Shown here: positions 9,981-64,000 of the stretch, piece after piece | How positions within the stretch are numbered: position 1 is the stretch's first letter | Layout: each line of letters begins with the position of its first letter | Assembly (NCBI GenBank): GCA_018389105.1 | Contig: JACATO010000317.1 | Span: 2,823,001 to 2,887,000, forward strand | Origin: Nautilus pompilius | Lineage: Eukaryota; Mollusca; Cephalopoda; Nautilida; Nautilidae | Direction: 5' to 3' | Length of the DNA stretch: 64,000 bases | Position numbers and translations under genes: made by a program | Notes under the pieces: model-generated | What the model was told of the DNA's origin: nothing | The model's database searches: none | What the model saw: only the letters and a program-made list of their open reading frames with translations

Positions 9981-10073
9981 ACGATTAAAATATATTGTTT
10001 TATTGGCGCGGGATGACGGATAATGAAAGTTCGAAAATGTGGAAAATTCAACAGCGTACAACTTAATGAATTA
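9981..10073 (-). repeat. Repeat copy A, downstream half (split by the 2.2-kb insertion)
   Basis: These 93 bp match the reverse complement of 18898-18990 with about five differences. In the minus orientation the repeat ends with an AATAAA-type signal (CCAATAAAACAATATATTT), so it may be the 3' end of a transcribed repeat. Position 10072-10073 is the TA duplicated on insertion. Its other half resumes at 12293. Confidence 0.8.
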
Positions 10074-10100
10074 CACTGGTCAACAACATTTTTGGTGCAT
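10074..10100. repeat. Left terminal inverted repeat
   Basis: Twenty-seven bases ending in GGTGCAT. It pairs with 12256-12292 apart from single changes and the longer T/C tract in the right copy. Confidence 0.8.
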
Positions 10101-10534
10101 TGATACTGACCCTTGATGTTACCTGATTTGAGTGTGCTGAATTTATATATGAAGTTAGTTTTCCTCTGATAGCTCCAAATTTTTTGCAATTAAGCTTTTT
10201 TTATTTTTCCGAAATTTGAATGTTTCTCGTATGATGATGCAATCCATCTGAAAATTTTATGGTTATACCATCTTCATAATAGGTGGAAAACAAATATGTT
10301 TGCATTGAGGTTCTAGATCTATTCATAAATACGAGTTAGTACACCACAATAAGAATTAGGCTATAAAAATAGTATTTAATATTCCGATAAATGTTACCAT
10401 TTGCCAATACAGAAACGTAACTCCGCTATATTAAGTGTGTGTACTTATTTTCAGTGGAAAACATACATTATATACAATTAATAGGTAGCTAGGTCAGAAA
10501 CGGAATAGTATTGAAGGCAAAACAAAAATAGATC

Positions 10535-12087
10535 TTATTCAGGCAAGAATTTGCGCTTGTAGCTCTTGCGTTTGTGTATTTTCCCAGGGCAATCTCGCTT
10601 AATGCTCCAGCAGTGGTCTGCTATCATATTTTTGTCCCATCTGCCTTGGTACCGCTCTTCCATGGTTCTGATGTCTTGATGGGAAGCGCTCTCCATGCTC
10701 ATCACTAACAGCCCCGAGATTCTCAGGAAATTGATCAAGGTGACTATGCAGCAAATGGAGTTTGACACTCATTTTACTCCAAAGATCACGAAAAGCTGAC
10801 AACATGTTAGTTAAAAGAATTTCATAGTCATCTGCTTTTCTTTTACCAAGGAAATTTTGTATAACTGCCACGAATGACAGCTATGCTGCCCTTTCCTTGT
10901 CATTCATCTTTCTGATAAATTCCTCATCACGCACAAGGGCACGAATCTGAGGTCCATCTAACACACCTGCTTTAATCTTCTCGAAAGACAAAGCAGGGAA
11001 TGCAGAGATTATATGTTGAAAATATTCACCATCAGTATTCAATGCTTTCGTGAACTGCTTCATCAAGCCCAGCTTGATATGGAATGGTGGGAAAACAATC
11101 TTATCTTGACTGATGAAAGTGACCATTTTAAAGTCTACACAAATGATCCAGTTGTGTTCATGATATTTTAGTAGGTCAATAACCGTTTTTATGTCATTAT
11201 ATTCTTCTCGTAAATGCACTGAGTGACCAACTGGGACAGCTCCATAAACATTGCCATTGTGCAGGAGAACACACGTTAGGCTGCGCGTAGAGCTATCTAG
11301 AAATAGTCGCCACTCAGTTGGATTGTAAGATGGAATGTCTAATACCTGGAGAAGACCTTGAATATCGTGGCAGAAAACAAAATATTTTTCTTCAGAAAAA
11401 TAAGACAAAAATCTGGTTCCACTTTCGAAAATAGGAAACTTTCGCAGCTTGGTCAAGTAGATGTTTTTCTTGCAGCCTGGATGCTAACACTTCAGCTGCA
11501 TTCTTGGAGAGCCCCAGATCACGCACTAAGTCATTCAGTTCTGGTTGGTTAAACTGTTGAGGAGTTGACTATTCGGTATAAGAGGGGTCTTTGAATTCTG
11601 AACTTATTTCTTGAACCTCGTTATCATCGTCGTGATGTTGTTCGCTTCTTTCATCTTCGGATGAGGTTAGCCCACGAAAAACTGAAATCGGGAGTATATC
11701 AGAGTGCATAATAGGTCTAATTGCTGATGGAATATTAGGATAAGAGATTTTATGCCTGTTTTTCATGCCAATACCCTTTGTCTTGACCAGACAAAAATAA
11801 CAGTCAGTTGTGTGATCCCTGGGCTCTCGCCACACCATAGGAACTCCAAAAGACAGACCCTTCCGTTTTCCTTTTGTCCAGTCACGAAGCCTTTCCTCAC
11901 AGATATGACACAACATGAGGGGCCCATTTTTGTCTTGGTCGCCAAGGGGAATTCCAAAGTAGGCCTTATAAGCTTGTCTCACAAACAATGTTATATTACG
12001 CCTTTGACGAATAAGTGTGAAGTAGCCAGTGACGTAGCAGAAGCCATCAGGATTATTCACACATCGACGTTTGCTTGAAGAATCCAT
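10535..12087 (-). pseudogene. Unnamed invertebrate multicopy protein (putative transposase), damaged copy
   Basis: The chosen start is the ATG at 12087 (MDSSSKRRCVNN), because TTTCAG, an acceptor-like site, lies 8 bp upstream. Recognisable blocks in order are FCYVTGYFTL, FGIPLGDQDKNGP, an early CHIC pair, FGVPMVWREPRDHTTDCYFC, PELNDLVRDLGLSKNAAEVL, WRLFLDSSTRSLTCVLLHNG, WIICVDFKMVTF, FPPFHIKLGLMKQFTKAL, DGPQIRALVRDEEF, FPENLG, then MEERYQGRW and KRKFLPE at the stop (10535-10537). I recall this family as abundant in arthropods and cnidarians and annotated only as uncharacterised. This copy has in-frame stops at about 11569 and 10881, frame changes near 11435 and 10680, and appears to lack about 50 residues near 11108, where relatives carry a Cys-rich CFLCMWDSR segment. 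The order D (LFLD), D (ICVD), missing Cys block, then HIKLG suggests a DDE/RNase H-type transposase. This is an inference. Confidence 0.75.
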
Positions 12088-12255
12088 GATTAGATCTGAA
12101 ACATAAACACAATTGTCAATTTTAAGTATGATATATCTCGACAGGTCAAAAAAGTATATCTTAAAATTGCAAGAAAACGAGAGCATATAGAGCAAAACTA
12201 ATTTAAAATTTGAAATCAGCACCAAAAATTAAGCTAGAAACAGTGAAAAAATCTC

Positions 12256-12292
12256 ATGCACCAGAAAAAGAGAAAAAAATTGTTGCCCAGTG
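12256..12292. repeat. Right terminal inverted repeat
   Basis: Thirty-seven bases. Complemented, it shows the same CACTGG, CAACAA, T-run and GGTGCAT blocks as the left end, with about 10 extra bases in the T/C tract. Confidence 0.8.
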
Positions 12293-12345
12293 TAATCGAT
12301 CATTTCTTTCGACATGTACCAATGTATATTTGTGAATATGCAATT
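12293..12345 (-). repeat. Repeat copy A, upstream half
   Basis: Begins with the second TA of the duplication and resembles the reverse complement of 18850-18899 at roughly 80 percent, including the block CATTTCTTTCGACA. It fades out before about 12345. Confidence 0.65.
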
Positions 12346-18849: not shown

Positions 18850-18990
18850 TATCTCCTTTACTAATTTGCATTGGAATGTGTCGAAAGAAATGCTCGATAA
18901 TTCATTAAGTTGTACACTGTTAAATTTTCCACATTTTCGAACTTTCATTATCCGTCATCCAGCTCCAATAAAATAATATATTTTAATCGT
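18850..18990 (+). repeat. Repeat copy B, uninterrupted (empty site)
   Basis: The same repeat as the sequence flanking the 2.2-kb element, here without an insert. The two flanks meet at a single TA (18898-18899) with one base fewer than expected. The right half (18898-18990) is about 95 percent identical to 9981-10073 complemented; the left half is less similar. AATAAA lies at 18967-18972. The repeat class is unknown. Confidence 0.8.
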
Positions 18991-19990
18991 TAACTTTTAA
19001 AGTGGTTCAGCTGTAAGTGACCATTAATGTCGCGGAACAATAAAAGATCAAGACACCGAGCTTTTGCAAAACTTTAGAATTTACTTGGACTCTCTTTGAA
19101 TTAAAGGTCGTCTTTGTTTGTCTGCCTAATTACGGCCAGAGAAACACAATTTTTACGTGTAATGTATTCTATACATAATATTAGCAATAAAAAGTAGAAA
19201 ATTTCGTGTAAATGTCATCTAAAGATGGTGTTTTTTCGGTTTAATGCAGTCTTCTAAGATAAAGATGAATTCTTCCGTTTTGTTATGGTTACTGGTAGAA
19301 TTCTAGAAAAGCATGATACAAACAGACAAACAGAAAACGTTTTTATTAAAAAGAATCTCCACTAATCATAGAAAACCGATCTGTGAAAGTTACAAACATT
19401 TTTCATTACTTTTTCATCAAAGGCCCCTGTTTTGAGCACTCAAAATACGTTCCCAAGTCATTATCATTCCAACCAAATGAGACTGAAAAATTTACTTCTT
19501 GAAATATTCTGTACCAAATTATGGCTCGAGATGACCATGTCTCGTAAAGTTTAACGTTTAGCTGACAGTTTGGTCTCAAACCTTCTTACCACAAATCCGA
19601 AGCCTTTGCCAATTCATGAAACTTTGCAGTAATTGGCGCGATGCCACGTTAGAATTGACATTGGAGTTGACGTGGCTCCTAATGATCTTCCACTATAAAA
19701 TCGCTAAACCGGGTTCCTTCCGCTATCGGTTCGTCTGTAGGAAAAATAGCCAGTGTATTTACGTCCTTGATGCAGACTTAAGACGGTCATTCACAAACTC
19801 AAAAAATTATTGTGCGGACATTAAAAAAATATATTATTTAATAAATCCTTTGCAGGATATTATTCGCCATTAGTTATTATACATGTACATAAATCATTCG
19901 CTATATTATTGCAAATTTATTCCACGAGGAAACATCATACGAGAATTAATGTCGGTCTTTTACTTGTTACCGCGTTTACTTTGTTTTCAC
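18991..19990. other. Non-coding stretch
   Basis: Nothing recognisable. The plus-strand ORF at 19616-19873 lacks any motif. Confidence 0.5.
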
Positions 19991-32010: not shown

Positions 32011-32015
32011 TGAAA

Positions 32016-32668
32016 GATTTTGAGCATTATGGAAATCTGCGATGTCACGTATTTATAGATATGAAATTAACAGAAGTCCGTAGAGATATTTATTACTTTC
32101 AGTCACACACCTTAACTGAAAACTTATACTGAGTTAAACATGAATATGGGAACTCAGGCCACAGATAATTTTGAAAAGACTTTCATTTAAAATCTACAAT
32201 AAAACTTTAGAAAAAATAAGAAAATGAAACTAAGATTTTGAGCATTATCGAAATCTGCGATGTCACGTATTTATAGATATGAAATTAACAGAAGTCCGTA
32301 GAGATATTTATTACTTTCAGTCACACACCTTAACTGAAAACTTATACTGAGTTAAACATGAATATGGGAACTCAGGCCACAGATAATTTTGAAAAGACTT
32401 TCATTTAAAATCTACAATAAAACTTTAGAAAAAATAAGAAAATGAAACTAAGATTTTGAGCATTATCGAAATCTGCGATGTCACGTATTTATAGATATGA
32501 AATTAACAGAAGTCCGTAGAGATATTTATTACTTTCAGTCACACACCTTAGCTGAAAACTTATACTGAGTTAAACATGAATATGGGAACTCAGGCCACAG
32601 ATAATTTTGAAAAGACTTTCATTTAAAATCTACAATAAAACTTTAGAAAAAATAAGAAAATGAAACTA
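32016..32668. repeat. Tandem triplication of a 218-bp unit
   Basis: Unit starts are at 32016, 32234 and 32452, exactly 218 bp apart. The copies are almost identical. I see one change in the first copy (ATTATGG against ATTATCG) and one in the third (CTTAGCTG against CTTAACTG). No ORF runs through the unit. The near identity means a recent duplication, ongoing homogenisation, or an assembly effect. Confidence 0.95.
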
Positions 32669-51591: not shown

Positions 51592-52160
51592 CAGGGTTAT
51601 TCAAAAAAAAATGAACCGATTTCATGACACATTACTTCAGTTCTCAAGCATCGTCATGGAATGAGTCAGTGACCATTTGAAAGAGGAGTTTTCTAAGTTT
51701 TGATTGGCTGCCACAGGGGGTCGCTGTAGTCGCGTCGTTCCTCCGGCAACGTTCATTGTTTGTTTACCCTCAGAATGGCGAGTCCTCAGCAAAAGGCGTT
51801 CTCGAGTTTGCGAAAACAAAATCGGTTGTTACGGTGCAGCGTGATTTTTTCTTATGAGGATATGTAAAAGATCGCGTTTATGATCCACCGCTACCCACTA
51901 ACCTCGATGACCTTAAACATCGAATAACAACAGCGATCAACTCAGTGGATCGTGATATGCTGATACGCGTCTGGGAGGAATTCTCTTATCGCATTGATGT
52001 TGCCCGTGCTGCAGGTGGTGGCCACATTGAACACTTGTAAGGCAGAAAATAAAACTTTATTTTGAGTAGAATACTTGTGACTTAGCTGGAGTTTTCTATT
52101 GCTTTTTCCTTATTAAAATATTGCGTAATGAAATCGGTTCATTCTTTTTGAATAACCCTG
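51592..52160 (+). mobile_element. Internally deleted Tc1/mariner-type element (DUF4817-like), 569 bp
   Basis: The terminal inverted repeats of 33-34 bp (51592-51625, 52128-52160) start CAGGGTTATTC and share TGAACCGATTTCAT, with one base change and one indel between them. TA is duplicated at 51590-51591 and 52161-52162. Inside are only the two ends of a transposase gene, so the copy is non-autonomous. It lies precisely within a codon of the host MULE transposase. The near identity of its ends suggests a fairly young insertion. Confidence 0.9.
51775..52040 (+). pseudogene. Deleted Tc1/mariner-type transposase, N- and C-terminal pieces
   Basis: The ATG at 51775 begins MASPQQKAF, typical of transposases carrying a DUF4817 start; VVTVQRDF appears one frame away. 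Near 51855 the sequence jumps directly to the C-terminal part GYVKDRVYDPPLPTNL, INSVDRDMLIRVWEEF and GGGHIEHL with its stop at 52038. The DDE catalytic core is entirely missing. Confidence 0.8.
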
Positions 52161-52802
52161 TAAGATGCTTTTCAACTCTTCCAATTCTTCGAATCGCCGA
52201 TGTAACTGATGGTTTCGAGAAACTAGTCGACGACGGTGATCTTCCTAAAGAACTAGCGTCTTGTTTTGCAACGTTCTGTATTGGATGCGAAAGAGGTCGA
52301 GCTAATGGAAGACGAAGAATTACTCCAACATTACCTATTGGCATTTGTAATGTCCTTAACAGAGAAGAACGAGATACGCCTCGTACCAACGAAAAACTGA
52401 AAGGATACTATAATGCAATCCAAGACTCGGTGAGGCGCGTATACCCCAACATTTGGAAATTAATTTCAACTTTGAAGAAAGAAGAATGTTTAGCACAATT
52501 GAAAACAGTTTCAATTTGATCGGGTGAGAACGCCAAAGACGAGAAGTATAAATACGTGAACTAATCGCTGTAAGCTCTGACTGCTAGATATGATTTACGT
52601 AACTAGATCGACTTTTTACAAGGGAATAGTTCGTAACTTGTCTCACTTTCAATAAGTTTTAATTTTTAGCGCATCAGTTTTTATGACGGCCGTTTATAGC
52701 TTTTAACTGAAGCAACACTTATTTAAATAAACTTTATTTTTAACGTTGACTACGGACCACTAATACATATTTTTTGACTTTAATACTAAATAAATTGTTG
52801 CA

Positions 52803-62229: not shown

Positions 62230-64000
62230 TACACTAACCACTACTCAAATACTAAATTTTCACTTTTAATTTCTTATTAACCTAAATTAACTTTACTAAA
62301 AAAAAATTAAAAAATTAGAAGGGATCGCTTTTTATAGCGTCTCTGAAATGTTTCATACATTTTAGATGAGGAATACGTTATGCGTGGACCTGGCCAGTAA
62401 GTAAATTAAAAGCTCTAAACTTTTTTTCTTATAAACACAGATAAATTGTGTATGCAATTCGGGTATTTAGGAAGCTAAAAACATGACATTTGTGAGGATT
62501 TACATATATGCGCTGAAAATACTGAAAAATCTACCCCCCCCACACACAACATGTAATTTATGGTCTATTTTCAGCTACTCGTTCGTAGAAACGAAGAGCA
62601 AGAATTCAGGGTCCCTTCTTCGTCGCTACTTTTAAAACAATATCTCTAAGAGTTGGGGATTTCATTGCGTTTCAAAACAGCATGTGGATTATTTTTCCAC
62701 ATCACTTGTCTTTAAATTACAGGCGAGGAATTTCTATTGTTGACAGGTAAATTGATGAACAATGCCTCAAGCAACGTTCGCTTTTCTAAATCGATAAACC
62801 TCATGGAACATTCGTTTAAAAAAACAACAAAAAGAAACGTTATATACAAAGGAAAATATCAAAATGTAACATTATAACAAGGTTTAAAAAAGATAACCTT
62901 TTGTTTATTTCTGTTTAAAAACTACTCAAATATCGAATAGCAGGTACGATTCTATTACGTAAGACGACTAGGGGAGATTGAAAGGCTTCAAGAACAGGAA
63001 AATCAATGAATTCTTTTGCATGGAAACATATGATCAATAAATACTTGAAACTCACTACCATCTGAAAGCGTATTAAAAAACTACTTTCGCTTCCTAAACT
63101 ACTTAGCGATATCCTTAAGAAAGTATACAGGCATTAACTTAGAACTAAAAACACGGCCAGTCAAACAGGGAGAAGAGACCTAAATGAAATATCCGAGTAG
63201 GAGCGCAAATCTACAAACCATCTATTCTTATATAATGCAAGCAAAAGTGCCAATATCTAAATCTGTTTCTGCCTATACAGACATCAATGTTCGCAAATTC
63301 AGAGCTTATATGTTTATGAACTTTTTCCTCTTCCGTGTTGCATCTATGTGCAGCAAAAATCCGTTAACGCGGCATTAATGATAGGTCAAAGAATAGGCGC
63401 TAGAATGAACTCTAACTTACACTGGCACATCATCTGATTTATCTTCTTATTTATCAAATCACAGTTATGGATATTAGGCAACTTTAATTTAATATGTTAA
63501 TGTTTTAATAGTTTAAGAAATGCACATTATAATCAACAAAACAAAACAAAGAAAACCAGATGTTCTGACACTGAGAAGACAGAGAGTTAATCATTACTGT
63601 TCGCATGTATGGTCTAGATGGCTGTCGGAAATAACCTGACACCATTCATGAGAAAAAAGTCTTAAGTCTAAGAATCAACATTTCTTTCGCATTTTAATCA
63701 GTTGAAAGACAAATAAACTCATTCATAGATATTATTGAAAAATTTTATTTGTATGTGAAGATGCAATGGTATTATCAGGAGCACGGAAGAAAAAGACACT
63801 TTAAAATACAATAATGGCAATTGTGCTAGACTCTTCAGTCGTTTGCTTTTCTTCAAAAGAACCCTCTTTGACAGTGGGCTTAAAGAATGATCAGTCTGCC
63901 ATCATCCGTTAGTAGGTGCTGCCCATTTAATACATTAGGTCGTTACAAAGGTTTTGTTGGTTTTTATATTATGTTAATTTATGGTTCATTTTGTGTATGC
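62230..64000. other. Non-coding AT-rich stretch
   Basis: A short C-run and CA tract lies near 62533. No supported gene to the window end. Confidence 0.5.

Follow-up and report, generated by a model that had tools for sequence, protein, structure and literature searches.

An inactivated DNA transposon, very probably of the Chapaev3 type, and its relatives in the genome of Nautilus pompilius

The Element and Its Gene Remnant

A stretch of 64,000 nucleotides from Nautilus pompilius (assembly GCA_018389105.1, contig JACATO010000317.1, positions 2,823,001 to 2,887,000 of the forward strand), termed the window in the following, contains a 2,219-bp element with inverted ends that enclose the remnant of a transposase gene on the minus strand. 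The original prediction had pointed to inverted ends flanked by TA, to a gene at 10535-12087 and to its product as candidate transposase of an undescribed or poorly described DNA transposon group. The follow-up covered the genome of the animal (728 Mb in 2,558 contigs). The features concerned are, in window positions:

10071-10073, plus strand: target duplication, left copy TTA (from the empty site)
10074-12292, no strand: whole element, CAC...GTG, 2,219 bp (ends common to other copies)
10074-10093, plus strand: left terminal inverted repeat
10541-10681, minus strand: transposase remnant, last part, corresponding to P0001 residues 527-573 (tblastn), in a third frame
10683-11411, minus strand: transposase remnant, middle part, corresponding to P0001 residues 234-526 (tblastn), in another frame than the first part, with one in-frame stop, a 50-codon deletion and a change of the motif LH to FH
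11114-11115, no strand: point of a 150-bp deletion private to the window copy, with loss of the C(2)C region (its precise position varies with the aligner)
11395-12087, minus strand: transposase remnant, first part, corresponding to P0001 residues 1-238 (tblastn), with one in-frame stop
12273-12292, minus strand: right terminal inverted repeat
12293-12295, plus strand: target duplication, right copy, today TAA and thus one base off TTA (from the empty site)
18857-19002, minus strand: paralogous empty site of the insertion, target TTA at 18898-18900 (alignment to the joined flanks: identity in 131 of 152 columns, with a gap of three bases where the flanks meet)

The element starts with CACTGGTCAACAACATTTTT, and its far end is an imperfect inverse of this start, giving inverted ends of the form CACTGG...CAGTG. 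Between the arms 10070-10093 and 12273-12296, 21 of 24 places match, a value that was reached by none of 300,000 pairs of random 24-mers drawn from the window. While the ends are thus real, the gene placed between them is not intact. Aligned to a whole relative (P0001), it breaks up into three segments, each in its own frame and two of them carrying an in-frame stop, and about 150 bp are missing where all 20 other aligned copies of the same sub-family (A, see below) carry 147-150 bases. Two stops, two frame changes and the private deletion of the C(2)C region leave the window copy dead and unable to encode a whole enzyme.

Copies in the Genome

The window copy and 33 other loci fetched from the genome constitute sub-family A (34 loci), the latter being mostly 91-96% identical to the window element. 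Wherever ends are present, similarity among the copies stops at CAC and GTG. When the left end was used as a 27-base pattern with up to three mismatches, it was found 30 times in the genome (reversed control: 0), which is about the number of known copies, and there was no sign of a family of miniature inverted-repeat transposable elements built on A ends. In a comparison of the 400-bp flanks of 29 two-ended copies (24 from sub-family A and five from sub-family B, described below), L009 and L010 were the only pair with matching flanks on both sides; the remaining matches consisted of short pieces (L014 with L025, L031 with L040, and L046 with both L036 and the end of the window). Common ends combined with differing flanks are as expected of independent insertions, and the 34 A loci together with at least 84 matches in a protein search of the genome establish that the family is not single-copy; on both counts the transposon proposed originally passed the checks that had been suggested for it. 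L009 and L010 reside on one contig about 1.25 Mb apart, have flanks that are 99-100% identical and represent one insertion, which indicates either that a large segment was duplicated recently or that the assembly is at fault here.

Sub-family B, with about 70% DNA identity to A, was read at 22 distinct places on other contigs of the same genome (within the loci L042-L068), 20 of them two-ended and 2,274-2,312 bp in length. The 21 aligned A copies, with L009 and L010 entered separately, have a median pairwise divergence of 4.4%, the 20 B copies one of 0.6%, and sub-family B therefore spread recently. The intact B gene is a single open frame of 574 codons, and among the matches listed by the protein search five span the query from end to end (574 residues) and are free of stops. 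B copies with the whole gene, taken together with their low divergence, point to recent movement.

Further lineages are present in the genome at 58, 57, 52 and 49% protein identity. Four were fetched, of which L069 and L070 have the flanks TAA/TAA and TTA/TTA, respectively, each with A...T outside, L071 has a fitting end on the right side only, and in the fetched locus of L072 ends were not found.

The Target Duplication

A search with the joined flanks of the window copy matched a single other place, and this place is located inside the window itself. The empty site reads GAATTATCGA, the filled site GAATTA/element/TAATCGA, and at the junction the two differ by exactly three bases (ATTAT vs. 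ATTA/TAAT). The target of the window insertion therefore is A-TTA-T, with the right TTA copy changed to TAA, and the unequal flanks seen today reflect one base difference. TA does stand on either side of the element, as had been noted originally, but the duplication comprises three base pairs and not TA.

In sub-family B, equal TWA (W, A or T) is found on both sides of 19 of the 20 two-ended copies, and the left-outer A as well as the right-outer T in all 20. Upon permutation of the right flanks (20,000 permutations), B copies gave a mean of 10.2 identical pairs, and the observed value was reached in a fraction of 0.00005. The lone exception is L065, whose right flank lies inside a common repeat. 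Three fetched empty copies of this repeat (L073-L075) read A-TAA-T, and the other flank of L065, on the left, bears no relation to the repeat. L065 is probably a chimaera of two insertions, or else the product of a later rearrangement, and since a chimaera is the most likely origin, its unequal flanks are of little use for judging duplication length. Searches for empty sites of L046, L064, L045, L051, L027 and L065 gave none that was informative; one match obtained for L046 crosses the junction by a few bases only.

The Encoded Protein

Four proteins from four lineages were aligned, L070 without its first part. Invariant in all four are D272, D326, C345-x2-C348, L393-H394, H502-x4-H507, E521, E524 and E534, such that the ordered D, D and H blocks that had been read from the window are borne out on whole relatives. 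The motifs C(2)C, LH and H(4)H are thus found in four out of four proteins of other sub-families or copies, while in the window copy the first is gone and the second altered. Because the copies are dispersed and end alike, an empty site and target duplications are present and the motifs are of the CMC type, the view that the family encodes the transposase of a DNA transposon, as originally suspected, is supported. Among viral and prokaryote contigs, the scans led to no confirmed relative. A search of the PDB with one protein and with the profile of the four-protein alignment likewise yielded no relative, the one row returned for the single protein being a collagen fusion with an E-value of 0.26.

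Assignment to Chapaev3

Chapaev3 belongs to the CMC/CMCT clade, is related to Transib and RAG1 and is said to have been described by Kapitonov and Jurka in 2007 and 2008. According to Zhang et al. (2014, PMC4079192), its traits are CAC/GTG ends, the motifs C(2)C, LH and H(4)H and TWA duplications with A before and T after, the duplications having been confirmed by paralogous empty sites. These are the properties encountered here: the termini are CAC...GTG, a 3-bp duplication is evident from the empty site of the window copy and from identical flanks in sub-family B and in 12 of the 23 A insertions, the target TWA flanked by A and T is clear in B and a mere tendency in A, and the three motifs occur in all four related proteins. 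The same hallmarks are documented for Garfield, Merrow and Conan in that source, where the silkworm element Garfield measures 2,289 bp, close to the B copies, and has, as here, a single transposase gene (556 residues vs. 574). Garfield and Merrow have two exons, whereas the intact B gene is one open frame like those of most other Chapaev3 elements covered there; further Chapaev3 elements, from blowfly, are listed in a table of PMC3630058. Since ends, duplication length, target and motifs agree with the published hallmarks, we consider it very probable that the feature in the window is a cut-and-paste DNA transposon of the Chapaev3 type, present as an inactivated copy, and the idea of an undescribed or poorly described group is not supported. 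Sub-family A differs from this type in its many unequal or non-TWA flanks.

Transib and RAG1 belong to the same wider CMCT clade. Transib generates 5-bp target duplications as opposed to the 3 bp observed here. A significant sequence match to Transib or RAG1 was not obtained in Pfam or PDB searches; the Pfam model RAG1_imp_bd aligned with the N-terminal piece of the window copy, one of 12 proteins or fragments scanned, at an E-value of 0.044, which is below the cut-off and at best a weak hint. Chapaev3 elements are described in PMC4411706 as containing the Chapa zinc finger, related to the N-terminal part of RAG1, and an N-terminal Cys/His block in the proteins studied here would fit its place.

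Several observations weigh against the assignment to Chapaev3, which was made by published hallmarks. Sequence searches of Pfam (the 12 proteins or fragments mentioned), NCBIfam and the PDB gave nothing above the cut-off, and structure prediction for the broken window piece, with the TAG codon read through, resulted in an unusable fold (mean predicted local distance difference test score, pLDDT, 39.2). The flanks of sub-family A are irregular. They were counted for 23 insertions, given that ten of the 34 loci are without a locatable end and L010 was dropped as a repeat of L009. Ten of the 12 identical pairs are TWA, the outer A...T is present in 14 of the 23, and 11 insertions have unequal 3-bp flanks, including L021, which has a damaged right end and was entered as unequal. 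This is more than we would expect from the divergence of A alone, and in several A copies AT adjoins the end in place of TA or AA. Identical pairs are nevertheless in excess over the mean of 5.0 found by permutation as for B, the observed value being reached in a fraction of 0.0004. Greater age, chimaeras, damage or looser target choice may each contribute to the unequal flanks. We regard it as possible, yet rather unlikely, that several Chapaev3 lineages exist side by side, with B moving now by means of an intact 574-codon transposase and A using looser, AT-only three-base targets (TAT and ATA besides TWA) than the strict A-TWA-T.

Other origins of the element have to be weighed against the same evidence. 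The TA on both sides of the window copy would suit an undescribed, Tc1/mariner-like or ESTA-like transposon duplicating TA, but for this copy a TA duplication is refuted by the three bases seen at the empty site, and TA stands on both sides of just 2 of 23 A insertions and 1 of 20 B copies, the B case being L065 with its flanks from two unrelated places; we consider such an element very improbable. A 3-bp duplication of the TWA type would also be in line with a PIF/Harbinger-type element, as canonical Harbinger and Nuwa likewise duplicate 3 bp (PMC12730594). The CAC...GTG ends and the CMC-type C(2)C and H(4)H motifs speak against this, no Pfam transposase model matched and a second gene was not seen between the ends of the window copy, so that we give this origin next to no credence.

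CA...TG ends, duplications of 2-5 bp and C(2)C...H(3-4)H are common across the CMCT clade (PMC12730594), and another branch, i.e., EnSpm/CACTA, Mirage or an unnamed sister of Chapaev3, might therefore be the source. We judge this improbable, as a TWA target with A before and T after, and the pairing of LH with H(4)H at a length of about 2.3 kb and a protein size of about 556 residues, are reported for Chapaev3 in particular in PMC4079192.

Proposed Mechanism and Implications

The data show that the element inserts at a TWA site and duplicates three base pairs in doing so, that its copies are scattered but end alike, and that relatives with a whole gene exist in the same genome. For a Chapaev3-type element, a transposase made by an intact copy would recognize the CACTGG ends, cut out the element and put it in at A-TWA-T, whereby three bases would be duplicated. 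Such an enzyme would presumably act by cut and paste through a DDE core that is interrupted by a zinc-binding insertion. Defective copies, among them the one in the window, would depend for any movement on enzyme supplied from another source.

Both a name and a mode of action are thereby proposed for a protein family that the original prediction had called widespread and unnamed and that remained unmatched in Pfam and NCBIfam here. A PANTHER number associated with the family was present in none of the 10 papers listed by a literature search, which does not prove its absence from print. Its members in the Nautilus genome look like Chapaev3 transposases, and such predicted proteins should therefore preferably be classed with transposon genes and not with host genes. 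With its young intact copies, the genome might provide a functional enzyme related to those of Transib and RAG1.

Other Features of the Window

A 218-bp unit is repeated three times head-to-tail at 32014-32668, the units being 99% alike, and represents either a very young tandem duplication or a small satellite array. An open frame of 132 amino acids on the plus strand (52121-52519) is without a Pfam match above the cut-off and resembles a fragment of a predicted protein or of one derived from a transposon. Positions 63925-63995 are part of a common short repeat that is present also beside L046 and L036; a query with the L046 flank returned 1,556 first-look candidates in the genome.
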